Shown here piece after piece: positions 2,451 to 59,129 of a stretch of 64,000 nt of DNA (its first letter is position 1; every line of letters begins with the position of its first letter). Source of the stretch: Verrucomicrobia bacterium IMCC26134 (GTDB lineage: Bacteria > Verrucomicrobiota > Verrucomicrobiia > Opitutales > Opitutaceae); the NCBI GenBank assembly GCA_000972765.1, contig CP011265.1, forward strand, positions 3,469,001 through 3,533,000. The letters are read 5' to 3'. The notes under the pieces were generated by a model. That model made no database searches, was not told the DNA's origin, and was given only the letters and a program-made list of their open reading frames with translations. Made by a program: the position numbers and the translations under genes.

Positions 2451-5348
2451 ATGCCCCGTATCTATTCTGAGTTGATGCGTCTTATCCCGCTAAAATCCGT
2501 TGGGCCGTGCCTGGTGGTTTTTTTTGGCTGCTTTTCGATGGCCTTTGCCGACAGCGCTGGAGGATCGGTGCAATCTCTGGCCGGCACGTGGGAAGTCCGC
2601 TTGGACCCCAAGGTGCTCGGTGCGGGGCAAGGCTGGATGGACCCGGGGGTAAAATTCGAGGAGACGCTGAATCTACCCGGCACAACCGATCAAGCCAATC
2701 TCGGCATCCCCTTGGCGACCAAACCTATAGTGAGCAAAGAAGGGCTCGCCAGACTGCATCGGAAGTTTTCCTATATCGGGCCGGCATGGTATCGTAAAAC
2801 GATCGAAATCCCTGCCGACTGGAAGGGTAAACGGGTCGTCCTGTCGCTCGAACGGGTGCTATGGGAAAGCCAAGTCTGGCTCGATGGGGTGGAGATCGGC
2901 AAACAGAACTCACTCAGCGCGCCCCACGTCTTTGACCTGAGCGCACAGGCGGGAGTCGGCCGCCACGAACTCGTGGTGCGGGTCGATAACCGGCAACAAT
3001 TCGACATTGGCCGTTCTCACGGTTACATTGAGGACACTCAATCGATCTGGAACGGCATCGTTGGCGCCCTTGAGTTGCGCGCGAGCCCCGTGGTCTGGAT
3101 CGAGCAAATCCAGATCGAGCCCGACCCGGCCAGAGCCTCCGCCAAGGTGAAAATCGGCAATCGCACCGGCCAGGCCGGCGAAGGGCGCCTGCACGCGAAA
3201 GTGACCGGACCGGGTCTGGCCTTCGACGCCGAGCTGCCGCTTCGTTGGACGGCGGAAGGAGGCGAGGTGACAGTGGATCTGAAGAGCACGCAACCCCTGC
3301 CGCTATGGAGCGAGTTGCATCCCGCGCTTTGCACGCTGAGTGTGACGCTGTCCCGGCCCGGCGCGGAGGCGGTGAAGCGAGAGCAGGTTTTCGGCTATCG
3401 CAAAATCTCAACCGCGGGCTCCCGCATCATGCTGAACGACCTGCCGGTTTTTTTCCGCGGCACGCATGAAGGCGCGTCGTTTCCCCTGACCGGCTATCCG
3501 CCGATGGACGTGGCGGAATGGCGGCGGCTGTTTCGCATTCTCAAGGATTGGGGACTGAACCACATGCGCTTCCATTCCTACTGCCCGCCCGAAGCCTGCT
3601 TCGCGGCAGCGGACGCGGAGGGCATTTACCTGCAGGCCGAACTGCCGCTCTGGGCCGGAGACCTCGGCAAGCCCGGCGATGCCGGTCGCGTGGCATGGGT
3701 GCGAGCCGAGGCGGCGCGGATTTTCGAAGCCTATGGCAACCACCCCTCGCTCGTGCTCTTCTCGCTCGGGAACGAGTTGCACGGCCAATACGAGTTCATG
3801 AAAACCCTGCTCGCCGAACTGCAGCAGGCGGACGGACGGCGACTCTACACCCTCACCTCGAACCGCCTCTGGGTGGCGGATGCACCGCCCAAAGTCGGCG
3901 AACGCGACGGCCCTCCCGGCACCGACGACTTTCTGGTGGAGCGGGCCTTTCGCGTGAATGGAAAAATCGAGGGCATGCGCGGGCAGAGCTTTTTTAGCGA
4001 GGAACCGAATACCTCGGTCGATTTCCGCAAGATCCTCGGTCGCGCCGCCCTTCCCCTGCTCACGCATGAGATCGGACAATGGACGGTGTTCCCCAATCTG
4101 GCGGAGATAACCAAATACACCGGTGTGCTCCGCCCCCTCAACTTGGAGGCGATCCGTGATGATCTGGAAAAAGCGGGCATGCTGTCGCAGGCGGCGGATT
4201 TTACGCGGGCATCGGGCAAGTTCTCGGCCGAGCTCTACAAGCAGGAACTGGAGCTCGCCCTGCGCACGCCCGGCCTGGCGGGTTACCAGCTGCTCGATCT
4301 GCACGACTACCCGGGACAAGGCACCGCGCACGTGGGCCTGCTGGATTCGTTCTGGGAGTCGAAAGGCTTCGAGGACTCGGCGGCCTTTCGCGAAGCGGCG
4401 GCGCCGGTCGTCCCGCTGGTGCGCCTGCCGAAGCGGGTCTTTGCCGCCGGGGAAAAACTAACCGCGCCGGTCGAATGGGCGAACTACTCGGAGCAGCCCG
4501 TGGCCGGCCTTGATTCGTCATGGGAGCTCACTACGCCGACAGGCCTGGTGCTCGCCCGAGGGGCGCTGGATCGCGTCAACCTTGCGCTGGGCGCCAGCCA
4601 GCCAGGCGGCGAAATCCAGGTGACGCTGCCCCAGCTGGAGAAAGCCTCCGCGGCGGTGCTGCGGATCAAGGCCCCCTCCGCCGGAGCAGGCAACTCGTGG
4701 AAAATCTGGATCGTGCCGCCCGCGCCGGCCGTGGACGCCGACGGAGTGACCGTGACGGATTCGCTGGCCCGGGCCAAAGCCGCGCTAAGCCAGGGCGGCC
4801 GCGTGCTCTACCTGCCACCGGCGGCCGCGCTGCGCCAGCATCAAGACACCGCCTTCCTGCCCGCCTTCTGGAGTCCCGTTTATTTCACCAACCAAGCCGG
4901 CACGATGGGGCTGTTGATCCGCGACCGGCATCCGGCGCTGGCGGACTTCCCGACCGCCGACCACTCCGACTGGCAATGGTGGGGCGTGCTCACGCCGGCG
5001 TCCGGCGCCGTCGTGCTGGATACGGTGAACAAGTCCCTGCGCCCCATCGTGCAGGTGATCGATTCCTTTGCACGGAATCAGAAACTGGGCCTGGTTTTTG
5101 AAGCCAAGGTCGGCGGCGGGCATCTCATGGTGAGCACGGTGAATCTCGCCGATTCCAATCTGACCGACCCCATGCGGCGCCAGTTGCGGGCGAGCCTGGT
5201 GCGCTACCTCGCCACGAATGCTCCAAGCGACCTCGTCAGCCTAAGCCACGAGGAATTGAACCGGCTCTTCCGTGAGGAAGCGTCGGGAAATCGCACGGAG
5301 CGCGAATGGGTGAAGGACATGGAGCCGCCTCCGGAAAAGAAACGATGA
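2451..5348 (+). CDS. Secreted glycoside hydrolase family 2 enzyme
   Basis: About 965 residues from the ATG at 2451. The frame stays open to 2364, and ATG 2475 is an alternative that would start right before the signal peptide (LVVFFGCFSMAFADS). Domains in order: galactose-binding-like sugar-binding domain (about residues 35-220, with GTWEVRLDP and WYRKTIEIP), immunoglobulin-like domain, TIM barrel (about 325-660), then C-terminal beta domains. The acid/base is probably Glu442 in SLGNELHGQ, and the nucleophile is probably Glu540 in LLTHEIGQW. GH2 enzymes hydrolyse terminal beta-galactosides, glucuronides or mannosides with retention; the specificity is not readable here. First gene of an apparent operon. 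Its TGA overlaps the ATG of the next GH2 gene, indicating translational coupling. Confidence 0.9.
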   Translation: MPRIYSELMRLIPLKSVGPCLVVFFGCFSMAFADSAGGSVQSLAGTWEVRLDPKVLGAGQGWMDPGVKFEETLNLPGTTDQANLGIPLATKPIVSKEGLARLHRKFSYIGPAWYRKTIEIPADWKGKRVVLSLERVLWESQVWLDGVEIGKQNSLSAPHVFDLSAQAGVGRHELVVRVDNRQQFDIGRSHGYIEDTQSIWNGIVGALELRASPVVWIEQIQIEPDPARASAKVKIGNRTGQAGEGRLHAKVTGPGLAFDAELPLRWTAEGGEVTVDLKSTQPLPLWSELHPALCTLSVTLSRPGAEAVKREQVFGYRKISTAGSRIMLNDLPVFFRGTHEGASFPLTGYPPMDVAEWRRLFRILKDWGLNHMRFHSYCPPEACFAAADAEGIYLQAELPLWAGDLGKPGDAGRVAWVRAEAARIFEAYGNHPSLVLFSLGNELHGQYEFMKTLLAELQQADGRRLYTLTSNRLWVADAPPKVGERDGPPGTDDFLVERAFRVNGKIEGMRGQSFFSEEPNTSVDFRKILGRAALPLLTHEIGQWTVFPNLAEITKYTGVLRPLNLEAIRDDLEKAGMLSQAADFTRASGKFSAELYKQELELALRTPGLAGYQLLDLHDYPGQGTAHVGLLDSFWESKGFEDSAAFREAAAPVVPLVRLPKRVFAAGEKLTAPVEWANYSEQPVAGLDSSWELTTPTGLVLARGALDRVNLALGASQPGGEIQVTLPQLEKASAAVLRIKAPSAGAGNSWKIWIVPPAPAVDADGVTVTDSLARAKAALSQGGRVLYLPPAAALRQHQDTAFLPAFWSPVYFTNQAGTMGLLIRDRHPALADFPTADHSDWQWWGVLTPASGAVVLDTVNKSLRPIVQVIDSFARNQKLGLVFEAKVGGGHLMVSTVNLADSNLTDPMRRQLRASLVRYLATNAPSDLVSLSHEELNRLFREEASGNRTEREWVKDMEPPPEKKR

Positions 5349-7414
5349 ACGCGGGTCTCATCCGGCTGGTTTTAATCCTCACGTTTGCCTGCTCGGCATT
5401 CGCCGGGCGCATCGAAACGCCCCTCCTGGAGGACTGGAAATTCATCAAGCGCGACCTCCCGCCCGCCGCTTCTCCGGCGAACTGGGAAGATGTGAATCTG
5501 CCGCATACCTGGAACACGATCGATGGCGCCGACGGACTCGCTGCCGAACCGGCCGAGCCGGAGGGGTATTATCGCGGCCCCGCATGGTATTTTCGCACCC
5601 TGCCCGTCCCCAAAGAGTGGAAGACCCGGCGGGTTTTCATACGTTTCGAAGGCGCTGCCACCGTCGCTGATGTCCTGGTAAATGGGATACCAGTCGGACA
5701 ACACCGCGGCGCCTTCGCCGCTTTTTGCTTCGAACTCACACCTTACCTGCAGTTCGACGGACGCGACACGCTGAAGGTGCGGGTGGACAACGCCCGCGCC
5801 TTTGACGTGGCGCCGCTGGCGGGGGATTTCACAATCTTCGGCGGGTTGTATCGGCCGGTGACCCTGCTCTCGACCGAAAGCGTGTGCGTCTCCCCGATCT
5901 TTTTCGCTTCGCCTGGCGTTTATGTGAATTTGCAACGGATCACGCAGGACGCCGCCCTCATCGAGGCGAAGGTAAAAATCTCGAGCGGCGAAAAGACGGC
6001 GGCCGAAGTCGTGGTGGAAGTCGAAATCCGCGACGCCGACGGACGGCCCGTCGCGCAGGAAAGGCAAGCGGTGAAAACCGCTCCCGTGGACACCGTGGAG
6101 GCCACCGTGGGCCTAAGCATCAAGACACCCCGCCTCTGGAACGGACGGGGCGACCCCTACCTCTACCGCACGGTTGTGCGGGTGATATGCGAGGGCCAGG
6201 AGATCGACGAAGTGAACCAGCCTCTGGGCATCCGCGAAGTGGAGCTCTCCAAGGAAAAAGGCTTTTTACTGAACGGCCGGCCCTACCCGCTCCACGGCGT
6301 CAACCGTCACCAGGACACGGCGACGCGCGGCTGGGCCATGACGGAGGCGGACCACCGCAACGACCATGCCCTGATCCGCGAGATCGGCGCCACCGCGGTG
6401 CGACTGGCGCACTACCCGCAAGCCACGGCGTTTCATGACGAAAGCGACCGCACCGGACTTATCGTATGGCAGGAAATCCCGCTGGTCGATTCCGTTGCGG
6501 CCACTCCCGAGTTTCTGGAAAACGCACGCCTCCAGCTCCGGGAGATGATCTGGCAAAACCGCCACCACCCCTCGATCGCGCTGTGGGGTCTCTACAACGA
6601 ACTCGAGCGCGGCGGCGCCGAGGTCAAGACCGCCGGGCCCACGCCCGTTGTCGCAACCCTTCAAGCCCTCGCCAAACAGCTCGATTCATCACGGCCCACC
6701 GTGGCAGCCTCGCAGCGTCAGGATGCCAAGGCGCGGCATCGGATCCCCGACGCCGCCGCCTGGAACATCTACCCCGGCTGGTATACCGGTGCGCCCGAAG
6801 ACGCGACCGCCTGGATCGCAAGTTACCAACGCCAGATGGGCGCCAAAATCGGGATCAGCGAATACGGGGCCGGCGCAAACATCACCCAGCACCAGGAAGG
6901 CGTGCCGGCCAAACCAGTCGCGGGCGGTGCCTTTCACCCCGAGGAATGGCAGACCCTTTATCACGAAAAACTCTGGGCGCAGCTCCGGGCGAATCCCGAT
7001 CTCTGGGGCACCTACGTCTGGGTGATGTTCGACTTTGCCGCTGATGCGAGAAACGAGGGCGGCACCCCGGGTCTGAACGACAAGGGCCTGGTGACCCGCG
7101 ACCGCCAGACGCGCAAGGACGCCTTCTATTTCTACAAGGCCAACTGGAATCCCGAGCCCATGCTGCATCTGGTCTCAAAACGCATGACGCCGCGCCGCGA
7201 AGCGCTCACGGAAGTAAAAGCCTACACCAACTGCACGAGCGCGGAGCTGCGGGTCAACGGCCTCGCACTGGGCACCCGTGAACCCGACACCCTGCGCATC
7301 GTGCGCTGGGAGAATATTCGATTGAACCCGGGAAAGAACCATATCGAGATCCGCAGCCTTTCCCCGGAAGGCGGGTTGACGGACGGGTGTGATTGGATGC
7401 TGGATACAAATTAA
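5345..7414 (+). CDS. Secreted glycoside hydrolase family 2 enzyme (beta-galactosidase/glucuronidase type)
   Basis: 689 residues starting at the ATG that overlaps the upstream stop (ATGA); the open frame extends further upstream but only inside the previous gene. Signal peptide to about residue 21 (ILTFACSAFAG). Sugar-binding domain (LPHTWNTIDG, GAWYF-type strand, FEGAATVADVLVNG), Ig-like domain, then TIM barrel with GVNRHQDTATRGWAM, acid/base Glu419 in YNELER and nucleophile Glu506 in ISEYGAG. A WVMFDFAAD segment follows, as in classical GH2 enzymes, and a short Ig-like C-terminal domain ends the protein. The residues around the active site match the beta-galactosidase/beta-glucuronidase branch better than mannosidases. 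Exported, probably acting on the same glycan as its operon partner. Confidence 0.92.
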   Translation: MNAGLIRLVLILTFACSAFAGRIETPLLEDWKFIKRDLPPAASPANWEDVNLPHTWNTIDGADGLAAEPAEPEGYYRGPAWYFRTLPVPKEWKTRRVFIRFEGAATVADVLVNGIPVGQHRGAFAAFCFELTPYLQFDGRDTLKVRVDNARAFDVAPLAGDFTIFGGLYRPVTLLSTESVCVSPIFFASPGVYVNLQRITQDAALIEAKVKISSGEKTAAEVVVEVEIRDADGRPVAQERQAVKTAPVDTVEATVGLSIKTPRLWNGRGDPYLYRTVVRVICEGQEIDEVNQPLGIREVELSKEKGFLLNGRPYPLHGVNRHQDTATRGWAMTEADHRNDHALIREIGATAVRLAHYPQATAFHDESDRTGLIVWQEIPLVDSVAATPEFLENARLQLREMIWQNRHHPSIALWGLYNELERGGAEVKTAGPTPVVATLQALAKQLDSSRPTVAASQRQDAKARHRIPDAAAWNIYPGWYTGAPEDATAWIASYQRQMGAKIGISEYGAGANITQHQEGVPAKPVAGGAFHPEEWQTLYHEKLWAQLRANPDLWGTYVWVMFDFAADARNEGGTPGLNDKGLVTRDRQTRKDAFYFYKANWNPEPMLHLVSKRMTPRREALTEVKAYTNCTSAELRVNGLALGTREPDTLRIVRWENIRLNPGKNHIEIRSLSPEGGLTDGCDWMLDTN

Positions 7415-7415
7415 C

Positions 7416-8858
7416 ATGCAACTACCCCTGCCCCGCCACCTTGCCCTGATGCTGCTTTGCCCGGCTCTGGCCGCCGCCTCCGGACCGTATCACGCCCAGG
7501 GTGAAATGGCCGGCGAGATCAACGCGACACGGGTGCTGCTCCAATCGCGCCTCACCGCCCTGCCGGGGCCGGAACTGGCGGCGGATGGCGACATGCCGGG
7601 GGCCAAGGGAGTGGCGGCCTTTGAATGGAGCGAAACCGCGGATTTCTTAAAACCACAGCGCACCGGCTGGCTTACCGCCGATGAAAAAAACGATTTCATC
7701 GTGCGCACCGCGTTGGATCGGCTGCAGCCGGGGCAACGCTACTACTACCGCCTGGTCTATGGCGCGAAGCCGGAGACGACCCAGAACGGACCGACCCGGA
7801 GCTTCAAAACCCTCGCCCCGCTGAATGCCGAAGCCCCGGTGTCGTTCTGCATGGGAAACTGCATGCACTACGACGCGTTTATGAGCGGCGTGGCGAACGG
7901 AGACGGCCCCGTCACCGCAACCGAAGAAGACAAGCAATTGGGCTTCCGCGTCTTTGCCGCGATGCGAAACCTGCAGCCGGACTTCTTCATCGGGGCGGGC
8001 GATGCGGTGTATTACGACTTCCCCAAATCGCATCCGGCGAAAACCCTGCCTGAGCTGCGGAAAAAATGGCACGAGCAATTCCGCCTCCCGCGACTGAGCG
8101 AGTTCTTTGGCGAGTGCCCCGGCTATTGGTCGAAAGACGACCACGATTTCCGCTTCGACGACGCGGACCTCGAAGGAACCGCATTGCCCAGCGCCATGAC
8201 GGGCGAAGACCTGTTTCGCGAGCAACTGCCGCTCACGCCGCAAGGGGATAAAGACACCCCTACCTACCGCACGGTGCGAATCCACCCCCGCGTGCAGCTT
8301 TGGTTTTTGGAAGGCCGGGATTATAGATCGCCGAACTCGATGCCGGACAGTCCCGGAAAATCCATTTGGGGCGCGACCCAAAAGGCGTGGCTGGAAAAAA
8401 CCCTGAAAGAAAGCGATGCCACCTGGAAACTCATCGTCAGCCCGACGCCGCTCGTGGGGCCCGATCGGAAAAGCAAAAGCGACAATCACACCAATCCGCG
8501 CGGCTTCCGCCAGGAGGGCGACGCCTTCTTCTCATGGTTGCAGCAGGAGAAAATTGAAAACGTGATGATCCTCTCTGGCGACCGCCACTGGCAGTATCAC
8601 AGTATACATCCGAGCGGAGTCGAAGAGCTGTCCGTAGGTGCGCTCAATGACGAAAACTCCATCCTGGGCGAATACCCGGGACAGCCCGGATCCACCGACC
8701 CCGAGGGCAAAATCCGGCAACCCTACCATTACAAGGAGGCGACCGGCGGCTTTCTCTATGTAACCGTAACCCCGCATACGCAAAACCGGCACACTTTGCG
8801 GATGGAGTTCCGGGACGATACCGGGAAAATTTTATATCAAATCGAGAAAACGCCCTGA
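7416..8858 (+). CDS. PhoD-like secreted phosphatase/phosphodiesterase
   Basis: 480 residues from ATG 7416, one base after the stop of the GH2 gene. Signal peptide to about residue 22. An N-terminal fibronectin-like strand region ends in GQRYYYRLVYG, the usual start of PhoD family proteins. The metallophosphatase core follows: CMGNCMHYD, FFIGAGDAVYYD, WSKDDHDFRFDDAD and, near the C terminus, ILSGDRHWQYHS, giving the Asp and His metal ligands of the calcium/iron PhoD fold. Known members cleave phosphomono- or diesters outside the cytoplasm. Its place inside a glycosidase operon suggests a phosphorylated or teichoic-acid-like glycan, or simply phosphate scavenging; the sequence does not decide. 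Confidence 0.85.
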   Translation: MQLPLPRHLALMLLCPALAAASGPYHAQGEMAGEINATRVLLQSRLTALPGPELAADGDMPGAKGVAAFEWSETADFLKPQRTGWLTADEKNDFIVRTALDRLQPGQRYYYRLVYGAKPETTQNGPTRSFKTLAPLNAEAPVSFCMGNCMHYDAFMSGVANGDGPVTATEEDKQLGFRVFAAMRNLQPDFFIGAGDAVYYDFPKSHPAKTLPELRKKWHEQFRLPRLSEFFGECPGYWSKDDHDFRFDDADLEGTALPSAMTGEDLFREQLPLTPQGDKDTPTYRTVRIHPRVQLWFLEGRDYRSPNSMPDSPGKSIWGATQKAWLEKTLKESDATWKLIVSPTPLVGPDRKSKSDNHTNPRGFRQEGDAFFSWLQQEKIENVMILSGDRHWQYHSIHPSGVEELSVGALNDENSILGEYPGQPGSTDPEGKIRQPYHYKEATGGFLYVTVTPHTQNRHTLRMEFRDDTGKILYQIEKTP

Positions 8859-50379: not shown

Positions 50380-50610
50380 AAAAGGACCTCGTGGAACACA
50401 GCGGCTAATCGCGAAAGGGGAAGTAAAGAAGATGCGTGCGCCGTAGCTTTCACCCCTGCCCACCTTGCGCATCCGGCGACGGCACCAGCAACCAACGCAC
50501 CGCCGACAGCGCCGCCCACTCCGGCTTCCGTCGCCGCCCACCAGCCGGCGGCAAGCATCCCTCCCAATAAAAATACACGCCCTAATCCGGGCTACACCGT
50601 GCGGTTTTAA
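50380..50610 (+). other. In-frame open continuation after the transglycosylase stop
   Basis: Directly after TAA 50377-50379 the same frame is open for 76 codons. It reads as a Pro/Ala-rich tail similar in style to the linker of the upstream protein (HPATAPATNAPPTAPPTPA, IPPN) and ends NPGYTVRF. It contains no plausible start codon (one GTG near its end only). Its stop overlaps the stop of the convergent gene, a layout seen at real convergent gene ends in this window. It may be an ancestral extension cut off by a nonsense change, or a chance open frame in GC-rich DNA. Confidence 0.35.
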
Positions 50611-52514
50611 TTCCAGCCTTGCGCCGCGACCACCAGCGCAAGGTTTGCGCGCAGTTGCGTGTCCTCGGGATATTGCCGCAACCAGAATTCGGTCAACCAC
50701 CGCGCATTGTCGAGGTCGCCCTTCGCAAATGCCTCCCGCGCCAGCCATGCCCCCGCCTCCAGCGAGATTTCAGCCAGCGGAGCGTAGAGTTTACTCGCCT
50801 CATCCTTGCGACCCGCAGCGAGGTGCGCACGCGCAAGCAGGGCCACGCCTTCAGGTGCGGCGGCCAGCGCGGGAGTGGACTCCACCAAGGCGGTCGCTTC
50901 GGCGACATGGTCGCGCTCCATTAACCAGGTTGCGAGCAACAGGCCGGCAGCGTAGCCGGTGGCGCCTTCGTCCGCGGCCAGCTGGCGGAGATCGGACACT
51001 GCATCGGACCGGCCCGCGGACAACTTTAGCGCCGCTACCGCGTAATCGGTTTCCGGATACTCAGGCAAGGTCCTGCCCCAGACCAGCGCATCGAGCGTCC
51101 CCCGCACCATGCGGCGTGCCTCTAAAAGCCCTAAACGAATCCATCCGGGAGTGTCCAATGTCGAGGCTGACGACCAGCCAGCCAAAGCAACCGCCGGACC
51201 ATTCCATCCTGCAGCCAGCAAGGCGGCTGAAGCCGCCTGCGGACCCATGGCTACAGGGGTGAATTCCGCGATGGCCTCCCTGCCGCCGCGCAGGGCCTTC
51301 GCAGTCACCCACCACCAGCGATGTGCACCTGCGAGGGGAAATGGGCCCGGCGAGGCGAGGCCGACGTCGGCCGGCGACTTACCCTGCCGCACCGCCACCG
51401 TCGTTCGCAGCGAAGCGAGGAGACTGGGCGCGATTGAAGCCGCCCTTGTCGGAGCAGAGCTGATAAAGTCGCCTGCACCTGCCCAATCACCGCCACGGAT
51501 CTGCTCAAGCAGACGCAGCCAAAACACAGACGGCTCGGTTTGCGCATGCGCGTCAGGAAGATTCAAAGCGAGATAGCCCTTTTCATCCCAAAAACGATCA
51601 GGCGGCAAGTCCGCCAGCCAGCCGACGAAACGCGCCCGTCGCACCGCTGGAAGCCCCTCTGCAGCATCCAGTGCGGGCACACCGAGCATCCGCCTCCAGA
51701 ACACCACTCTCACCCAGAGATAATCCGGCGATTTTTCATCCAGCCCTTCGCGCCATGTCCGCACGGCCGTAGCCAGGTCGCCTTGTCGCAGATAAAACGA
51801 GGCGAGATCGTCGCGCCGCAACTGATTACCCGGATCGGCGGCGAGCGCCGCCACATAGTTTACCCGCGCTTGAGCCGTCTGCCCGGTCCTCTCCTGCAAG
51901 ATCGCACGCAGACCGCGCAAGTCGGCGTTCATAGGGTCGATCCGGTATGCGATCGCTAGCTCTTCAAAACGGGCCGCCCCATCGGTGGCCAGCATCGCCT
52001 GGCGCAGTAAAATCGGCAATTCGAATGATCCGGGCGAGCCGTCCGTGACTTTCGCCAGAAGACTCTTCGCTTCTTCGCATCTGTCGGACGCCCAGAGGAC
52101 GTCCACCTCGGCGCAAATCCAAGCCAAGGGCATTTTCTCGCTGCCGCGCCAGAGCTCGCGAATAGTCACTGCGGCAGCATCGTCACCCGACGCACGCGCA
52201 AGCCGCCAGAGCAAGAGAGCCGCCTCCTCGTCGAGCCCCGCTAATTCGGGATAGCGGGCGAAAAGCGCCTCCATCGCAGCAAAGTCCCGCAACCCGGCGG
52301 CGGCTCTGAATTCGAGCTCTGCCCAGCGACGCACCGCCACGGGTTCCGCAGGGCGGCCGCGTCTGCGCGCCTGATAATCAAGGATAGCGCGAGCCTCCTC
52401 CCAACGTGAGTCGCCGACTGACCGCTTGGTCGCGACCAGCGTCCATGTAAGAGCCGCACGAGCCGCAGCGTCACGCCACCACCACTTACCTACATTAGAA
52501 AGAACCGATGACAT
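50607..52514 (-). CDS. TPR-like helical repeat protein
   Basis: 635 residues rich in Ala, Leu, Arg and Trp, built from about 34-residue helix pairs typical of tetratricopeptide repeats (AALAADPGNQLRRDDLASFYLRQGDLATAVRTWREGLDE; LLARAHLAAGRKDEASKLYAPLAEIS; AKGDLDNARWLTEFWLRQYPEDTQLRANLALVVA). The N terminus (SSVLSNVGKWWWRDAAARAALTWTL) lacks a clear signal peptide; one weak hydrophobic stretch is present. Probably a scaffold for protein contacts; similar proteins accompany exopolysaccharide or PEP-CTERM export systems in other bacteria. Exact function unknown. Same strand as, and 50 bases downstream of, the response regulator. Confidence 0.75.
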   Translation of the reverse strand: MSSVLSNVGKWWWRDAAARAALTWTLVATKRSVGDSRWEEARAILDYQARRRGRPAEPVAVRRWAELEFRAAAGLRDFAAMEALFARYPELAGLDEEAALLLWRLARASGDDAAAVTIRELWRGSEKMPLAWICAEVDVLWASDRCEEAKSLLAKVTDGSPGSFELPILLRQAMLATDGAARFEELAIAYRIDPMNADLRGLRAILQERTGQTAQARVNYVAALAADPGNQLRRDDLASFYLRQGDLATAVRTWREGLDEKSPDYLWVRVVFWRRMLGVPALDAAEGLPAVRRARFVGWLADLPPDRFWDEKGYLALNLPDAHAQTEPSVFWLRLLEQIRGGDWAGAGDFISSAPTRAASIAPSLLASLRTTVAVRQGKSPADVGLASPGPFPLAGAHRWWWVTAKALRGGREAIAEFTPVAMGPQAASAALLAAGWNGPAVALAGWSSASTLDTPGWIRLGLLEARRMVRGTLDALVWGRTLPEYPETDYAVAALKLSAGRSDAVSDLRQLAADEGATGYAAGLLLATWLMERDHVAEATALVESTPALAAAPEGVALLARAHLAAGRKDEASKLYAPLAEISLEAGAWLAREAFAKGDLDNARWLTEFWLRQYPEDTQLRANLALVVAAQGWN

Positions 52515-52564: not shown

Positions 52565-53056
52565 TCAGCCGACATCGGCGAGCCGCATGGATTCCCAATC
52601 GTAAATCATAATTTCGCCGTGGGAAAAGCCGTGGGATGGCGCCCCCAAAATTCGCTCGATCAACTGCATTAAACTACCTGATCGAAAGGGCTTTATAAGA
52701 TATCCATCTATCCCTGACTGCTGCGATAACCCGATTAACTCCTCTTTATCCATGGAGGTCATGATGACAAAAGGCAGACGATCTTCCGGGAAGCAGCGCC
52801 GCACCTCAGCGCACAAACTCCACCCGTCCATTTCAGGCATGAGTCCATCACACAAAATCAAATCCGGGCGATTCTCCTTGATGCGCTCAAGCGCGGTCAT
52901 CGCATCCTCTTCGAGCTCCACCTCGTAGCCTTTGGCTTCGAGTATTTGCGCAACCAAAAGACGGACGTGGCGATTATCGTCCACCAGCAAAACCGAGCCC
53001 AGTTTCCTAAAGCCAGCGTCGGGTAAGTTGCGCGTGCTCAAAATGGGGCGGTTCAT
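52565..53056 (-). CDS. Response regulator, receiver domain only with short tails
   Basis: 163 residues. CheY-like receiver: acidic pair in VLLVDDNRH (residues 26-27), phosphoacceptor Asp70 in LILCDGLMPEMDGW, the Thr/Ser of FVIMTSMD, and Lys in YLIKPFRSGSL. The N-terminal 20 residues and C-terminal 25 (GFSHGEIMIYDWESMRLADVG) carry no known output domain. It probably relays phosphorylation to partners, like CheY or Spo0F. No histidine kinase is adjacent. Upstream of the TPR-like gene on the same strand. Confidence 0.92.
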   Translation of the reverse strand: MNRPILSTRNLPDAGFRKLGSVLLVDDNRHVRLLVAQILEAKGYEVELEEDAMTALERIKENRPDLILCDGLMPEMDGWSLCAEVRRCFPEDRLPFVIMTSMDKEELIGLSQQSGIDGYLIKPFRSGSLMQLIERILGAPSHGFSHGEIMIYDWESMRLADVG

Positions 53057-53188
53057 AGTCGGCTAAAGTAACAAGCTACTACCACATGCCGTGCCATGAC
53101 TTTACTAAAAATATTAACTTGTTATCATAAAATGACATAGAATTATTATAGCGCCTTTTAATTAATATTATCGCCTTCGGTGATCGCG

Positions 53189-53225
53189 ATATGCATGAAA
53201 AATACAATGCATTTTTCATGCATAT
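53189..53225. repeat. Perfect 15-bp inverted repeat
   Basis: ATATGCATGAAAAAT and ATTTTTCATGCATAT are exact inverted arms with a 7-nt spacer (ACAATGC). It lies upstream of the activator gene if that gene starts at 53354, or covers its first codons if at 53195. A dimeric regulator site or a strong hairpin in the leader are both possible. Confidence 0.75.
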
Positions 53226-53329
53226 ATGTAGGTAATGCCTCCCGAGGGCTTAAGGCGAAACTCGAAAAAATCGCTGCAGTCTCCGGCGCACCCGCGCCGA
53301 CCGTGTCCTCACTCGTATCTTGGATGGAA

Positions 53330-53345
53330 TGGCCGGCGCCGGCCA
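53330..53345. repeat. 16-bp perfect palindrome TGGCCGGCGCCGGCCA
   Basis: Self-complementary over 16 bases, centred 16-17 bases before ATG 53354. In RNA it would form a GC-only hairpin near the translation start of the activator. It may also be coincidental, since this DNA is GC-rich and the frame is open here. Confidence 0.5.
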
Positions 53346-53353
53346 ACCCCGAC

Positions 53354-54661
53354 ATGGTCAGAGGTAAAACTGAAGCGAAGTCCGTCCCTGTTCTGCTGAT
53401 CGCCGCCGACCAACTTATTCTCCCTGCCTGGCGAACGGTGCGGGTTCACCTCGCCGAGGCCGGGCGGTTCTTCGTCGTATTGTTACCCGCCGGCTCGCCC
53501 ACCGCCCATATCGTCGCCGCCTTGCGTGAGGGTGCCTACGACGCCCTTACGGAGGACGAACCACCCGAACGCTGGACGGTTACCCTGGACGCCGCGGCAG
53601 CCGCGGAATCACTCTGGGCACGGCTTTTTGGCGGCGCGGTGACAACCATGCGCGACGGTCTTGTGGGACGCTCCGCCACTTTGCAGCAATTACGCGAGTT
53701 GATAGCCCGAATCGGCCCCACATCCGCATCCGTGCTCATACTTGGTGAATCCGGCACCGGCAAGGAACGGGTCGCCGAAGCGCTCCATAAAGCCCGCGAC
53801 GAAGGCAAGGGGCCCTTCGTTGCGATCAACTGCACCGCCCTGCCGCGCGAACTACTGGAAGGGGAACTCTTCGGCGCAACCAAAGGCGCTTACACCGGAG
53901 CGCTTGCCGACCGCCCCGGCCTCGTCGAACAGGCGGATGGCGGCACGCTTTTTCTGGATGAGCTCGGCGACCTCGACCCGGCCCTCCAACCCAAGTTACT
54001 GCGCTTTCTGGAAACCCGCCGCGCCCGCCGCCTCGGCGGCAAGTCGGAATACTCCGTCGACGTGCGTATCCTGGCCGCCACCAATGCCGACCTGCGCGCG
54101 CAGGTCGCCGCCGGACGTTTCCGCGAGGACCTTTACTACCGCTTGGCAGATTTCACCATCGAGCTGCCGCCTCTGCGCGAACGCCGCGAAGACATCCCGC
54201 TGCTCTGCCGCCACTTCCTCGGAGCCGCTGCCGAGCGACACGGCAAACTCGTCACCAGTATGGAACCCGCATTGGTCGAGCGCCTCCAATCCTGGTCTTG
54301 GCCGGGCAACATCCGCGAACTACGCAGCACGATCGAGCGCCTCGTCATCCTCGCCAGCAGCCCTGTCCTTCGCGAAGGCGCATGGTCACCTCCCTCATCC
54401 GGCGGGCCCGCGCCCACCCCTCCGTCGGGCGCCAGCTCCGTCGTGGAAACCAGTGCATCCGGCTACGCCATACATGCCAACGAAACCGTAAACGCCGTGC
54501 CTCTCAACAAACGCCAGCGAAGGGAACTCGCTTTCCGCCTGCTGGCCGAGAGTGGCGGCGATCAGACTTGGGTCGCAGCCAGGCTCGGCATTCACCCGAC
54601 CACTCTTTACCGCTGGTGCCAGCAAAAGCCGGCAACGAATACGCCGCCCGCCGTCTTGTGA
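53354..54661 (+). CDS. Sigma54-type AAA+ transcriptional activator, Fis family
   Basis: 435 residues from ATG 53354. The frame is open back to 53180, with ATGs at 53195, 53207 and 53324. I prefer 53354 because a receiver-like N-terminal domain begins right after it (VPVLLIAADQLILPAWRTVRVHL), but it has lost the usual phosphoacceptor pattern. Central AAA+ domain: Walker A LILGESGTGKERVAE, GELFGATKGAYTGA (the sigma54-contact loop reads GAYTGA instead of GAFTGA), Walker B GGTLFLDELGDLD, RFREDLYYRLADFTIELPPLRERREDIPLLC and WPGNIRELRSTIERLV. A Fis-type helix-turn-helix (QTWVAARLGIHPTTLYRWCQQ) ends the protein. Activates RNA polymerase carrying sigma54; targets unknown. Inverted repeats lie on both sides of the gene. 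Confidence 0.88.
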   Translation: MVRGKTEAKSVPVLLIAADQLILPAWRTVRVHLAEAGRFFVVLLPAGSPTAHIVAALREGAYDALTEDEPPERWTVTLDAAAAAESLWARLFGGAVTTMRDGLVGRSATLQQLRELIARIGPTSASVLILGESGTGKERVAEALHKARDEGKGPFVAINCTALPRELLEGELFGATKGAYTGALADRPGLVEQADGGTLFLDELGDLDPALQPKLLRFLETRRARRLGGKSEYSVDVRILAATNADLRAQVAAGRFREDLYYRLADFTIELPPLRERREDIPLLCRHFLGAAAERHGKLVTSMEPALVERLQSWSWPGNIRELRSTIERLVILASSPVLREGAWSPPSSGGPAPTPPSGASSVVETSASGYAIHANETVNAVPLNKRQRRELAFRLLAESGGDQTWVAARLGIHPTTLYRWCQQKPATNTPPAVL

Positions 54662-54677
54662 CCGCTCATTATAAAAA

Positions 54678-54700
54678 ATTTTACGCATTTGCCGTAAAAT
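54678..54700. repeat. 8-bp inverted repeat after the activator gene
   Basis: ATTTTACG and CGTAAAAT with a 7-nt spacer (CATTTGC), just downstream of the activator stop and 130 bp before the glycosyltransferase-STAS gene. The spacer length equals that of the 53189-53225 repeat. It may be an operator; the A/T-rich arms make a poor terminator. Confidence 0.45.
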
Positions 54701-54829
54701 GCTCTTTATGAATAACCAAAGCCGTCAAGACCGACACCCGATGCCTTGCTCTACCCTATTCACAACCAGCTAATTTTGAACCCTGCGGATGTCCCGGCCG
54801 AAACCTACTCCACGCTCTTCTTCTCTCTC

Positions 54830-56278
54830 ATGCCTAAACTAGATTCCACCCGCTCCGCAGTGATCCTCGGCGTGCCGTTCCACGACGTCACGCTGAACGA
54901 AACCATTGCCCGCCTCGCGTCTGTGATCGAGCATCGCGATCCGGTCTACTGGGCCACCGCCAACCTCGATTTCGCTTATCAGGCCAGCGTGGATGTCGAG
55001 CTGCAACGCATCCTCGTCGAATCCGATCTCGTGCTTTGCGATGGCAAGCCGCTCGTATGGGCCTCGCGCATGATCGGAGCTCCGTTGCGCGAGCCTGTCG
55101 CCAGTTCGGACCTGATGCCCCGCATCGCCCAGGAGGCTGCAGCGCGCGGCTGGAAAGTATTCCTCCTAGGCGGCGGCCAAGATGCCCTAGCCGCCGCGCT
55201 CATCAAACTGCGCGCCCGCTACTCCAACCTCCAAGTCGATGGATACTCTTCCCCCTACGCGCAGTTGCTCGAGATTGATTTTGAAAACATCTCCACGCGC
55301 ATCGCCGCCGCCAAGCCCGACATCCTGCTCGTCGCCTTCGGCTGCCCGAAACAGGAGAAGTGGATCTACATAAACCACCGACGCCTGGGAGTGCCCATGT
55401 GCGTCGGCATTGGCGCCACGGTGGACCTCCTCGGCGGAAAGTTTCGCCAAGCACCCCGCTGGATGAAGATCGTGGGCGCTGAATGGCTTTTCCGACTCAG
55501 GCAGGAACCGCGCCGGCTTTTCAACCGTTACCTGATCGACCTGCTGTTTTTCGTCCGCGCCCTGCGCGCTCAGCGCCGGGCCTTGTCCCCCAACACACCA
55601 GCCCCCTCCACCTCCGAAGCGGTGGTATCCGCCGCTCCGGTTCTGAACACCGATATTCGCACCATAGTCTGGCGCGGAAGGATAGACACCGCCGCAATCT
55701 CCTCCGGTCAGGTGCCAGCCCCGGCCGCCGACCTACCTCCGGGAGGTGTCGTTGCACTCGATTTATCAGACGTCACCTTCATAGACAGCACGGGGCTAGG
55801 CTTTCTCCTGTCCGGCTACCGGCGCTCCATCGCCTCCGGAGGCGGCCTGGTCCTCGTTCGTCCTTCTTCGGCCGTCACGGGCCTCGTCGCAGCAATGAAA
55901 CTCGACCGTATCCTCCCCGTCGTAGAAGAGGCCGCCCGTGCCCGCGCCGCCCTCGGCCTCACCGCGCCGGCGCGCACGAACACCGCCGCCGCGGAAGATC
56001 TGGTGCTTTCCATTCAGGGCGAGCTCACCGCGACGCGCGTCCCCGGACTTTCCCGCTGGATCGAACAAGCCTGGTCCGCCCGCACCGACGCCACCCGTCT
56101 GGTGCTCGACCTCTCCGCCGTGCGTTTCATGGATAGCAGCGGCCTCGGGCTGCTCATCCAGTCTCACCGCCTCGCCGCGGCCCGCTCCGGCAGTAAACTC
56201 GTGCTGCGCCAACCATCCGAAAACGTTCGTAATGTCCTCCGTCTTGCCAAGGTCGATGGCGTGCTTAACATCGAGTGA
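54830..56278 (+). CDS. WecG/TagA/CpsF-type glycosyltransferase fused to two STAS domains
   Basis: 482 residues from ATG 54830, which begins the conserved part; the frame is open to 54746. Residues 10-245 form a complete GT26 glycosyltransferase: ILGVPFHDVTLNETIARL, TANLDFAYQ, ESDLVLCDGKPLVWASRMIG, KVFLLGGGQDA, PDILLVAFGCPKQEKWIYINHR and CVGIGATVDLLGGKFRQAPRWMKIVGAEWLFRLRQEPRRLFNRYL. GT26 enzymes add ManNAc, ManNAcA or glucose to lipid-linked intermediates of surface polymers at the inner membrane. The C-terminal part holds two STAS (anti-sigma-antagonist) domains with intact phospho-sites: DST at Ser320 and DSS at Ser436. Glycosyltransferase-STAS-STAS is an unusual arrangement and implies that partner switching acts on the enzyme itself. 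A lone STAS gene and a HATPase-PP2C gene follow. Confidence 0.9.
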   Translation: MPKLDSTRSAVILGVPFHDVTLNETIARLASVIEHRDPVYWATANLDFAYQASVDVELQRILVESDLVLCDGKPLVWASRMIGAPLREPVASSDLMPRIAQEAAARGWKVFLLGGGQDALAAALIKLRARYSNLQVDGYSSPYAQLLEIDFENISTRIAAAKPDILLVAFGCPKQEKWIYINHRRLGVPMCVGIGATVDLLGGKFRQAPRWMKIVGAEWLFRLRQEPRRLFNRYLIDLLFFVRALRAQRRALSPNTPAPSTSEAVVSAAPVLNTDIRTIVWRGRIDTAAISSGQVPAPAADLPPGGVVALDLSDVTFIDSTGLGFLLSGYRRSIASGGGLVLVRPSSAVTGLVAAMKLDRILPVVEEAARARAALGLTAPARTNTAAAEDLVLSIQGELTATRVPGLSRWIEQAWSARTDATRLVLDLSAVRFMDSSGLGLLIQSHRLAAARSGSKLVLRQPSENVRNVLRLAKVDGVLNIE

Positions 56279-56360: not shown

Positions 56361-56675
56361 TTAATTTCCTAGTTCGAAAACATTATGCAGCCGCAAAAGC
56401 TCGATCACGGCGAGCACAGCGGGCTTGACGTTGATAAGGCGCGTAACTCCGACTCCTGGTGGTAATTTACGATAGACGCTGAGCAGCGCCCCGATACCCG
56501 AGCTATCCACGAAATCAACCGCACCGAGATCGATCTCAACCCGTTCGATTCCTACGACCCAGGCGGCCGAAACATCCGCCTTGAAAGAGCGCGCGATCGC
56601 CGCGTCCAGACGCGACACGAGAACTTTTACCCCCAGCTTACCGGTCATCACTGTTGTCTGCAAAACAAGGCTCAT
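56361..56675 (-). CDS. STAS-domain anti-sigma factor antagonist
   Basis: 104 residues, a single STAS domain of SpoIIAA/RsbV type: VEIDLGAVDFVDSSGIGALLSVYRKL. The phosphorylatable serine is Ser58 in DSSG, the same number as in Bacillus SpoIIAA. When unphosphorylated such proteins bind their HATPase kinase partner and release its target. It points against the neighbouring genes but lies between the glycosyltransferase-STAS gene and the HATPase-PP2C gene, its likely partner. Cytoplasmic. Confidence 0.93.
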   Translation of the reverse strand: MSLVLQTTVMTGKLGVKVLVSRLDAAIARSFKADVSAAWVVGIERVEIDLGAVDFVDSSGIGALLSVYRKLPPGVGVTRLINVKPAVLAVIELLRLHNVFELGN

Positions 56676-56779: not shown

Positions 56780-57040
56780 ATGTTGCGCCAGCTCTACGTG
56801 CACGACTCTTTCGGAAGCCAGGCGGGCGCCGAGGCGAACCTCCTGATTACCGCGACCGAACTCAAAACGCGCGGTGCCAGCGTAGGTCTCTGGTCGCCTC
56901 CTGCCCCAGATGCCGCAGTCAACCAGTCGCTGATAGCACAACGGCTCACCCACGCCTTTAACCCAGCCTCCCTGCCTGCGGCCGGGCGCACCGTGGCTTC
57001 ATCTCTCATAAAGCTGTTTTTACTCCAAACTGCACCATGA
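56780..57040 (+). pseudogene. N-terminal fragment of a group 4 glycosyltransferase
   Basis: 86 codons. The first 35 residues (LRQLYVHDSFGSQAGAEANLLITATELKTRGASVGLW) match the start of GT4-type glycosyltransferases: the Gly-rich loop and the helix of the N-terminal Rossmann domain. After that the pattern is lost, and the protein ends long before a catalytic domain. The stop overlaps the start of the HATPase-PP2C gene (ATGA), so it may still be translated and drive coupled expression. I read it as a decayed or truncated gene left by a deletion; a functional short leader peptide is possible. Confidence 0.6.
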
Positions 57041-58746
57041 ACGATCTCGAGGAATCACTGGTGCTCACCCTGCAGGCGCGCCTCTCCAGCGTCCACCCGG
57101 CAGTAAACCGCTTGCTCGCCTGGTCGCGTATCCAAGGCCTGCCAGAAGATACCCTCGCACGGATAGAGCTCCCCCTCGTCGAGGCCGTTAACAACGCCAT
57201 CGAGCACGGATGCGCCGGCCTCACCTCCGCCGTCGTGCGCATATCCTCGCAAATCGACGCAGAGGGCTTGTTAGTCTCCGTGCGTGACCCGGGATGCTTC
57301 GCGCCAACCGCCAATTGGACTTTCCTGCCCAAAGACCCGATTGCAGAGGATGGCCGCGGTGGCTTTATCATCAATTCCAGCACCGACGGATGGGAGCACC
57401 AGAACGACCCCTCCGGGCACACCCTGCGCCTTCGCTGGCAAACCCGCGCAGCAGCCGGACACGGACTCGAAGCCGCCGCCAAACTGGAAACAACGATCGA
57501 CCGCCTGACCGAGGATCTGGCCAACAGCTTCGAGACCCTGCTGGGGCTTTCGCACTTCGCTGGCCTGCTCGCCACCAGCGCCAACTTTGACCAGCTTCTT
57601 AGCAAGGTCCAAGATCGTCTCTGCACGATGCTGGGTTACAACCAGCTGCTCGTCCGTTTCATCGAGGGCGACAGGCTTGTGCTCCATGCCGTCGGTCCGG
57701 TGACAAAGATACCCTCGAGCCTTCCCCTGGATCGCGCCTGCGCCGAATGTGAATGCGCCCGCCGCCGCCGCCCCTTGGTCGGCAACCGCTCCTCTCTCGC
57801 CGCCGATGATCCACTCGCCGCCGTGGCCGAACATCTCTGCGTGCTCACCGTCGAGTTCGGCGGAAAATCCTTGGGCTCCATCACGGTCTTGCGCGGAGCC
57901 AGCTCACCCGCGTTCTCCGCCGGCGAGGTCGAACTACTCCAGGCCGTCGCCGACTTCGTGGGCATCGCCAAGGCCACCGACACCCTTTGGAAAGAACGGG
58001 ACCAGCAGCTTCGCCTCGAGCAGGAGATTCAGGTCGCGGCCGGCATCCAGCGCTCCCTTCTGCCAGCGAGTTTTCCAACCCACACGCGCTGGTGGGTCCA
58101 CGGCGAATGCCGTCCCGCCCGCGAGGTCGGCGGCGACTACTTCGACGTCGTCTCGCTGCCCGATGGCAGCCTCCTCCTCCTTATCGCTGACGTCATGGGC
58201 AAGGGCGTGCCCGCCGCGCTCCTGGCCGCCATGCTGCGCAGCTCACTCCGCGCCCTCGCCGCCGTCGAATCATCCCCCGCACTCATCCTCACCGGCATCA
58301 ACCGGCAGCTTTTCGCCGACCTCGAAAATCTGGGTATGTTCATCACCGCCGTTCTCGCCGTCCTGCCCGCCGATCCGAAAACTTCACCTCATTTCGTCAA
58401 CGCCGGCCATTGCCCGCCCGCCATCCTCAAACCCGACGGCTCCATCGTAGAGCCTTCCGGCGGCGAAGTCCCGCTCGGCATCCTGCCCGACACCGTTTAT
58501 AATCCTCACGATCTGCCGCTAGCGAGCGGCGACCGCCTTTTCCTCTACACCGACGGCTGCTACGAAATACCCGGTGACGACGGTGAATTTCTCGGCGATA
58601 AACGCTTCGTTCGCTTCGCCTCTTCCCTGCTCCATCTCGCTCCGTCCGACATGGTCGCCGCTTTGCTCGACCCCGCCACCTTGGCACTCAACCCTGCCAC
58701 GATCGCCGACGACCGCACTCTTCTTGTCGCCAACCTAAGCCCATGA
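57037..58746 (+). CDS. HATPase-GAF-PP2C (RsbW/RsbU-like) signalling protein
   Basis: 569 residues, three domains. Residues 1-135: HATPase_c anti-sigma kinase of RsbW type with N-box EAVNNAIEHG (Glu49, Asn52/53), the VRDPGCF Asp-Gly loop and DGRGGF with GHTLRLRW. Residues about 160-310: GAF sensor (LLSKVQDRLCTMLGYNQLLVRFIEGD), followed by a short helix (LRLEQEIQVAAGIQRSLLP). Residues about 330-565: SpoIIE/RsbU PP2C phosphatase with metal ligands Asp367 (GGDYFD), Asp385 (ADVMGKG), Asp506 (YTDG) and Asp559 (DDRT). So one chain holds both the kinase that would phosphorylate STAS proteins and the phosphatase that would reverse it. Its start overlaps the glycosyltransferase fragment; its stop overlaps the response regulator. 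Confidence 0.93.
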   Translation: MNDLEESLVLTLQARLSSVHPAVNRLLAWSRIQGLPEDTLARIELPLVEAVNNAIEHGCAGLTSAVVRISSQIDAEGLLVSVRDPGCFAPTANWTFLPKDPIAEDGRGGFIINSSTDGWEHQNDPSGHTLRLRWQTRAAAGHGLEAAAKLETTIDRLTEDLANSFETLLGLSHFAGLLATSANFDQLLSKVQDRLCTMLGYNQLLVRFIEGDRLVLHAVGPVTKIPSSLPLDRACAECECARRRRPLVGNRSSLAADDPLAAVAEHLCVLTVEFGGKSLGSITVLRGASSPAFSAGEVELLQAVADFVGIAKATDTLWKERDQQLRLEQEIQVAAGIQRSLLPASFPTHTRWWVHGECRPAREVGGDYFDVVSLPDGSLLLLIADVMGKGVPAALLAAMLRSSLRALAAVESSPALILTGINRQLFADLENLGMFITAVLAVLPADPKTSPHFVNAGHCPPAILKPDGSIVEPSGGEVPLGILPDTVYNPHDLPLASGDRLFLYTDGCYEIPGDDGEFLGDKRFVRFASSLLHLAPSDMVAALLDPATLALNPATIADDRTLLVANLSP

Positions 58747-59129
58747 CAACGCGCACCATTCTCATAGTCGACGACGAGCCACATATGCTGCGCCTCGTGG
58801 CCTACGCGCTCAAATCCGTCAACGCCACCCTGCTCACCGCCAACAGCGGCCTCGACGCCCTCCAGATAATCCGCACGCAGCCCGTGGATCTCGCACTCTT
58901 CGACGTCCACATGAAGGATATTGACGGCCTCACCGCACTTAAGGAACTCCGCGCCGACCCCTCCCACCAAAACCTCCCCGTCATACTGCTCACCGGCGCC
59001 GGCGAGACCCACGTCGAGGAGCAGGGCCGCGCCCTCGGTGTGTATGCTTTTTTCCGCAAACCCTTCAGCCCCGCCCAACTCGCCGCCCGCGTGCGCGAGC
59101 TCCTCCCGCCCGCCAGCCCCGCCGCGTGA
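58743..59129 (+). CDS. Response regulator, receiver domain only
   Basis: 128 residues. CheY-like: ILIVDDEPH (acidic pair at residues 10-11), phosphoacceptor Asp54 in LALFDVHMKDIDG, Thr in ILLTGAGE, and Lys in FFRKPFSPAQL. No output domain. Overlaps the upstream HATPase-PP2C stop by four bases (ATGA) and is itself overlapped by the uridine kinase fragment. It probably modulates the phosphatase or a partner through protein contact, as in other two-component-linked partner-switching modules. Confidence 0.94.
   Translation: MTTRTILIVDDEPHMLRLVAYALKSVNATLLTANSGLDALQIIRTQPVDLALFDVHMKDIDGLTALKELRADPSHQNLPVILLTGAGETHVEEQGRALGVYAFFRKPFSPAQLAARVRELLPPASPAA

Follow-up and report, generated by a model that had tools for sequence, protein, structure and literature searches.

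STAS-type protein switches normally serve gene control, and STAS domains are also found as docking or oligomerisation modules, as in MlaB and the SulP transporters. In Vibrio fischeri the phosphorylation of the STAS protein SypA is set by SypE, in which serine-kinase and phosphatase domains oppose one another, and SypA acts below transcription, on a target protein that remains unidentified according to excerpts of two reports (PMC10120452, PMC4517449). In the HmpU/V/W system of Nostoc, too, a partner switch acts through a STAS protein, HmpV, whose effector has not been defined, and the excerpt of PMC6495340 that describes this STAS domain protein mentions no fused enzyme. In Anabaena, all4160 is listed by a review (PMC8256260) as a glycosyltransferase whose N-terminal part is a STAS domain; the review cites for it Wang et al. 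2007, a paper whose title refers to heterocyst envelope polysaccharide. For the glycosyltransferase TagA, excerpts of PMC6493773 report that activity requires both the C-terminal appendage and the membrane, propose that the enzyme is inactive as a dimer away from the membrane and becomes an active monomer when membrane-bound, and use a docking model to put Arg83 next to the lipid diphosphate.

The window, meaning the whole 64-kb stretch of Verrucomicrobia bacterium IMCC26134 DNA that was analysed, encodes a protein in which a GT26 glycosyltransferase is joined to two STAS domains. Its locus resembles SypA/SypE in having a single STAS protein and a kinase/PP2C protein, which in V. fischeri are tied to a polysaccharide locus (syp), but differs in that STAS domains are also fused to the GT26 and in that the kinase of the window carries a GAF domain and lacks a receiver. 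We know of no GT26 in the syp locus. Going by the review's description, all4160 is also a glycosyltransferase joined to STAS, although its STAS domain is N-terminal whereas here the STAS part is C-terminal and double. A preliminary description of this DNA had not recognised the architecture as a described system. Since all4160 appears in the review, the joining of STAS to a glycosyltransferase is not without precedent; no GT26-STAS fusion was found in searches of openly licensed papers. The same searches found no description of a C-terminal double STAS on GT26, its spread or its switch-gene neighbourhood.

Domain organisation of the fusion protein

The fusion protein has 482 residues and is encoded on the plus strand at 54830-56278, stop codon included, as defined by its open reading frame, profiles and structure matches. 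Residues 1-250 (54830-55579) comprise the GT26 (WecG/TagA/CpsF) domain with its C-terminal appendage, followed on the same strand by STAS domain 1 at about residues 272-378 (55643-55963) and STAS domain 2 at about residues 388-482 (55991-56275). A relative with 72% identity has a start that agrees with the ATG at 54830; were the in-frame TTG at 54746 used instead, the protein would be 28 residues longer. The enzyme half matches PF03808 of Pfam (183.8 bits against a cut-off of 27.4, residues 65-234) and wecG_tagA_cpsF of NCBIfam (TIGR00696; 129 bits, cut-off 69). The C-terminal half matches the Pfam STAS model PF01740 in two stretches (93.7 bits, cut-off 22.6) and ant_ant_sig of NCBIfam (TIGR00377; 95.6 bits, cut-off 53.45), and in a whole-genome search its two STAS domains were recovered separately, at 41.4 and 58.5 bits. 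A phmmer comparison with solved structures matched residues 12-247 to TagA (E 1.5e-32) and the C-terminal half to anti-sigma antagonists.

The AlphaFold2 model, which was built on 69 aligned sequences, has a mean pLDDT of 93.2 and a pTM of 0.91, and is of low confidence only for residues 1-3 and across the 251-270 linker (block means of 73 and 55). Modelled residues 8-203 correspond to TagA/TarA structures (Z 28.7, for a TarA chain; rmsd 1.5), and residues 376-482 to chains of the anti-sigma antagonist TM1442, RsbV and SpoIIAA (Z 15.9, for TM1442, to 11.2); MlaB and SLC26 STAS domains are also among the matches. The list of structure matches covers the GT26 part and STAS2, and STAS1 is assigned from profile matches. 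Open reading frame, frame, coordinates, profiles and model agree with the preliminary description, which had read 54830-56278 as a complete GT26 enzyme joined to two STAS domains, and the case that it named against itself, unrelated sequence in the STAS parts, is contradicted by PF01740, TIGR00377 and the TM1442-like fold of STAS2. The word complete is apt for the length of the glycosyltransferase domain, which is full, but not for residue 89, a proline where 68 of the 69 aligned rows have arginine.

Both STAS domains of the window protein have the D-S-[ST]-G site of the anti-sigma-antagonist type, and the positions proposed earlier are right: D319-S320-T321-G322 (DSTG; Ser320 codon at 55787-55789) and D435-S436-S437-G438 (DSSG; Ser436 codon at 56135-56137). 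In the alignment the phospho-acceptor serine is kept by 66 of 69 rows in STAS1 and 47 of 50 in STAS2, and in both domains by 46 of the 50 two-STAS rows. F-x-DSSG is present in 22 of the 23 single-STAS proteins encoded in the clusters (20 of 21 without two duplicates).

The enzyme half shares its fold, catalytic residues and C-terminal appendage with TagA/TarA, WecG and CpsF, from which the fusion differs by the two STAS domains after the appendage and, in the window copy, by the lack of an Arg83 equivalent. Thr43, Asn45, Asp71, Gln175, Arg222, Arg229 and Arg233 are invariant in 69 of 69 rows and Glu176 is present in 68. The residues T43/N45/D71/Q175/E176 correspond to TagA Thr37/Asn39/Asp65/Gln167/Glu168, and R222/R229/R233 to the TagA appendage residues Arg214/Arg221/Arg224. 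The fused GT26 is a predicted sugar transferase, and outside the genome of the window the family looks intact.

Distribution and gene clusters of the fused family

Within the genus the full fusion was found in 2 of 15 genomes, the window's own (G000) and G004, many of the others being incomplete assemblies. A domain count over Verrucomicrobiota, which the preliminary description had proposed, finds the fusion recurring: in overlapping genome samples, 21 of 372 genomes of the order match at E <= 1e-50 and 20 extend past the GT26 part, 35 of 384 genomes of the class match at E <= 1e-55 and 31 extend past residue 340, and in the phylum the alignment has matches at E <= 1e-40 in 190 of 387 genomes, mostly through the GT26 part and nothing more, with at least 35 of the 387 reaching column 330 of 476 or further among the matches listed. 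A frameshift artefact of a single genome is ruled out by the presence of the fusion in relatives across genus, order, class and phylum. In one locus (L132) the GT26 and STAS-STAS parts are two overlapping open reading frames, which may reflect a frameshift there.

The 80 loci of the set from named genomes are the best 80 of 570 confirmed ones, ordered by similarity to the STAS-bearing alignment, so that fused loci are over-represented among them. Among the named carriers are Cerasicoccus frondis NBRC 105381 and assemblies of Verrucomicrobiaceae, Akkermansiaceae and Pedosphaera, and outside the phylum Luteimonas panaciterrae Gsoil 068, a Chthonomonadales assembly and a Bacteroidetes-labelled assembly in which the match lies at a contig end. 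The fusion of L. panaciterrae, a member of the Pseudomonadota, is 44% identical and lies on a 608-kb contig between flanking GT4 genes (L096:9001-10413); horizontal transfer looks likely in this case. Among plasmids, 222 records match the fusion and none covers at least 80% of the query.

In a GT26 tree of 119 domains (69 fused, 50 plain), made by a quick method (LG+G4), unrooted and subject to a long-branch warning that includes plain rows on the opposite side, all fused domains group together with 8 plain ones (77 rows, SH-aLRT 97). The fused/plain label changes 6 times on this tree against 38.6 times in shuffles, and the simplest reading would be one fusion followed by later losses. Three of the eight plain rows (L140, L168, L172) may be truncated because they lie at or near contig ends, and another of the eight is L132, with its STAS-STAS part in the overlapping reading frame. 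In L137, L145, L141 and L170 a GT26 without STAS occupies the unchanged gene slot; these are likely true losses, and the STAS domains would therefore be dispensable for the enzyme in those lineages.

In relatives the fusion sits in predicted exopolysaccharide clusters, between GT4 genes. The gene order in L092 is STAS, nucleotidyltransferase-fold protein, GT4, GT26-STAS, GT4, Wzc, Wza, Wza, Wzx, DUF4114 protein and TPR protein, and parts of this order occur in other relatives. L095, L130 and L142 were dropped before counting as copies of L053, L087 and L089, respectively, and the near-identical L148 and L149 were both counted; L094 has no GT26 open reading frame called, and L053, L118 and L124 are in alignment A3 and absent from the 66 fused loci, their GT26 reading frame having been lost at the overlap step. 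A GT4 gene lies directly downstream of the fusion in 53 of the 66. With open reading frames called by simple length and overlap rules, which small genes can escape, a separate STAS gene is present in 23 of the 66 fused loci, an RsbW-type HATPase gene in 16, both in 15 and either in 24 (window included), and neither is present in 42 within the available flanks. Switch genes accompany 3 of the 20 plain GT26 loci of the phylum (L220, L221, L223), and the fetched set has 29 unfused loci, a good number of them from Bacillota, of which one has a separate STAS gene (the split case, L132) and none an HATPase gene. Fisher tests, uncorrected for kinship, give p = 0.099 for 24 of 66 fused against 3 of 20 plain loci and p = 0.025 when the fused loci are limited to the 40 flanked on each side by 6 kb or more, 18 of which have switch genes.

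A kinase/phosphatase gene is found near the fusion in families f1, f9 and f20 and in Verrucomicrobiaceae and Akkermansiaceae assemblies. In the nearest relative, G004, genes for a STAS protein, the nucleotidyltransferase-fold protein, an HATPase-SpoIIE protein, Wzc and Wza are on a separate contig (L240). The syp-type arrangement, in which a STAS protein and a SypE-like protein are encoded in a polysaccharide cluster, occurs in L078, L119 and L120, and the window has the switch genes without the polymer genes. The upstream GT4 is fused as well in G032, which encodes an 881-residue GT4-GT26-STAS-STAS protein (L054:5770-8415).

Further arrangements were seen among the relatives. GT4-GT26 fusions of 652-995 residues occur in L137, L145, L220 and L221. 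In family f41 a receiver-PP2C-HATPase protein (L221:14548-16251, L223:14908-16533) is encoded beside a single STAS protein and GT4/GT26 without STAS; it combines the same three kinds of domain in one protein as SypE does, but in an order that differs from that of SypE, where the receiver is central. Joining the members of such a split gene set would give a fusion of the kind described here. L078 has a likeness to exosortase (XrtA/PEP-CTERM) clusters in its TIGR03087-like upstream GT4 (199.7 bits, under the cut-off of 316.65), the exosortase-like gene that follows (36.3 bits; TIGR04178 cut-off 23) and its TPR protein, and Wza/Wzc-like genes in other relatives extend the likeness; the difference is that TIGR03087 and the XrtA-specific models stay under cut-off, the exosortase having been examined in one relative, L078. 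The window has no exosortase match, and those of its genome are at 2455664 and 2822256 only. At L078:6866-7951, and in 31 relatives (alignment A4), is a conserved cluster protein without a Pfam match that has the motifs LGGGYGRGEGG and NDLDYF. Its AlphaFold2 model (pLDDT 95.5) is matched by Foldseek to aminoglycoside nucleotidyltransferases (best E 3.1e-4, TM 0.39 by query), and the protein is predicted to have a nucleotidyltransferase fold.

The window copy and its neighbours

In the alignment the codon of Pro89 (55094-55096, plus strand) falls at the position of TagA Arg83, as placed from the excerpts of PMC6493773; the equivalent is a conserved pocket residue on which membership in the GT26 profile does not depend. 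Pro89 and Ser92 (55094-55105), in the active-site region, stand in place of a near-invariant Arg and Gly, Ser92 replacing the Gly of a V-A-G-S-D motif, and the sister copy in G004 keeps both residues. At 56 near-invariant GT26 columns, which are at least 90% conserved in the other rows, the window differs at 8 and the sister at 1, with a median of 1 and only one row that differs more than the window; few STAS columns are conserved enough for the same comparison. The GT26 part has on average 17.1 window-only and 6.1 sister-only changes (67 outgroups), about a threefold excess that is seen neither in STAS1 (5.0 and 7.4; 66 outgroups) nor in STAS2 (2.7 and 3.0; 48 outgroups), the outgroups being non-independent throughout. 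Rate tests on GT26 with single outgroups give chi-square values of 9.85 (L076), 4.26 (L096) and 2.46 (L099, not significant), and the GT26 tree branch is 0.18 for the window against 0.048 for the sister. Between window and sister the GT26 part is 80% identical (dN/dS 0.138/0.99), STAS1 58.5% (0.312/0.769) and STAS2 76.8% (0.197/0.663), so that over the pair the GT26 part is the best-kept and STAS1 the least.

None of the cluster genes for GT4, Wzc, Wza and Wzx was found within the 64-kb window. A search of the genome for the upstream GT4 gave a best match of 30% identity, and the two Poly_export genes are both outside the window. By these comparisons the window GT26 shows an apparent loss of constraint, including at the arginine by the lipid diphosphate, and the copy may have changed its use of the acceptor, be weakened or be kept for its STAS part.

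Upstream of the fusion are genes for a TPR protein (50607-52514, minus strand) akin to the one encoded in the exopolysaccharide clusters of several relatives, a receiver protein (52565-53056, minus strand; PF00072, 84.4 bits) and an AAA+ sigma-54 activator (53180-54661, plus strand; PF00158, 215.7 bits), a relative of which adjoins the fusion's upstream GT4 in G004 (L053) and G326 (L076). A search for a sigma-54 promoter ahead of the fusion, with a -24/-12 pattern allowing up to 2 mismatches, found none in 54661-54830, and the window has 23 matches against 30.6 expected.

Parts of a partner switch are encoded together downstream. They are a single-domain, SypA/RsbV-like STAS protein with VDSSGIG (56361-56675, minus strand; PF01740, 50.8 bits; TIGR00377, 39.2 bits, under the cut-off of 53.45) and a protein with RsbW-type HATPase, GAF and SpoIIE (PP2C) domains (57037-58746, plus strand; PF13581, 61.5 bits; PF07228, 155.9 bits), the gene for which begins 758 bp downstream of the fusion. 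It overlaps by 4 bp the gene for a receiver-only response regulator (58743-59129, plus strand; PF00072, 86.2 bits). The HATPase domain has the E-x3-N-x3-H motif (EAVNNAIEH), which is present in 15 of the 17 such proteins compared (14 of 16 without a duplicate), and the protein is a candidate serine kinase and phosphatase for the STAS domains. Two of the 11 HATPase_c_2 matches in the 4.0-Mb genome exceed 60 bits, those of this protein and of an RsbW-like protein near 7195, and by simple arithmetic the chance that either of two such genes would lie some 9 kb or less from a given gene is roughly 1%. The latter belongs to a second partner-switch set (L055:5164-7722, on G000:C1), which comprises a PP2C protein, a STAS protein and the RsbW-like kinase; the N-terminal part of this PP2C protein resembles, by eye, a cyclic-nucleotide-binding domain.

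Switch control of the glycosyltransferase and alternative readings

The comparisons establish, at the level of sequence, the fusion, its conservation, its single clade and its cluster context. The explanation we favour, tentatively and at just short of an even chance, is that this is an old, Verrucomicrobiota-centred family in which a membrane-associated GT26 of an exopolysaccharide cluster bears its own STAS switch and is controlled through an adjacent kinase/phosphatase. The HATPase protein would phosphorylate Ser320 and Ser436 and its PP2C domain would take the phosphate off again, and the phosphorylation state would set whether the STAS domains bind the kinase or the enzyme is left free. 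Since TagA gains activity only at the membrane, once its appendage has folded over the active site, and since a short flexible linker is all that separates STAS1 from the appendage, the switch would most likely permit or block docking of the appendage, or act on the monomer-dimer step. By analogy with SypA, the active form would be the unphosphorylated one. With constraint apparently lost in its enzyme half and the other polymer genes absent from the window, the window enzyme may make an altered product, work weakly or serve mainly in signalling, and the switch genes persist beside it. A glycosyltransferase as the output of a partner-switching circuit, which is the mechanism that the preliminary description had put forward, is plausible.

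The STAS domains could instead be a module for docking or oligomerisation that keeps the GT26 close to the flanking GT4 enzymes or to the membrane, with structural, unphosphorylated serines. The absence of switch genes from view in 42 of the 66 fused loci, the downstream GT4 in 53 of them, the existence of GT4-GT26 (L137, L145) and GT4-GT26-STAS-STAS (L054) fusions, and the MlaB and SLC26 domains among the structural matches all suit such a module, but we consider it unlikely given the acceptor serine in both domains of 46 of 50 two-STAS rows and the kinase/phosphatase gene nearby in several families (f1, f9, f20, Verrucomicrobiaceae, Akkermansiaceae). Very unlikely, in our estimate, is that the partner switch serves another target, a regulator or a sigma factor, and that the fusion merely shares its neighbourhood. 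The two receivers and the sigma-54 activator in the same stretch would fit that arrangement, as would the second PP2C/STAS/RsbW-like set at 5164-7722 of the genome sequence. No SigB/F/G-type sigma factor passed the TIGR02980 cut-off of 234.35 in this genome, where two matches of 134.5 and 114.7 bits, which would also fit, lie below what is a strict threshold (passed in 1 of 14 control genomes). The STAS domains, however, are on the enzyme itself, and the co-location recurs in several families.

A further reading concerns the window copy and can be held together with the favoured explanation for the family: the GT26 of the window lineage would be decaying or dead, and the protein would survive as a STAS sponge or as a signalling partner of the neighbouring kinase and regulators. 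This is possible, if somewhat doubtful. Pro89 and Ser92, the eight changed columns against one in the sister, the roughly threefold excess of lineage-specific changes in GT26 and not in the STAS domains, the longer branch (0.18 against 0.048), and the retention of switch genes where polymer genes are missing argue for decay; Asp71, Thr43, Asn45, Gln175 and the appendage arginines are nevertheless intact, the reading frame is open, GT26 has the lowest pairwise dN/dS of the three parts when compared with the sister, the chi-square with L099 as the single outgroup is only 2.46, and the STAS columns conserved enough to serve in the comparison are few.

Under the favoured explanation of a switch-bearing GT26, the fusion suggests that a glycosyltransferase can be the target of a SypA-like STAS protein, and its recurrence across the phylum hints at a possible on-off control of polymer synthesis itself. 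A wider proposal, which we regard as doubtful rather than probable, is that a glycosyltransferase of the lipid-linked stage would be the direct, covalently joined effector of a SypE-like kinase/phosphatase throughout the phylum, that by gene-fusion logic free SypA-type STAS proteins elsewhere would bind glycosyltransferases too, and that the enzyme half in the window would be turning into a pure signalling protein. SypA and HmpV are partner-switch outputs without a known target, and the fused family names a concrete target class. With the STAS domains physically part of a polymer-making enzyme the target question becomes testable, including in Cerasicoccus frondis NBRC 105381 and Luteimonas panaciterrae Gsoil 068.

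Elsewhere in the window, and with no visible tie to the fusion, 2364-37182 is a sugar-degradation and surface-protein region that encodes three GH2 proteins, two alpha-L-fucosidases, two beta-helix proteins and two PATR-repeat proteins.
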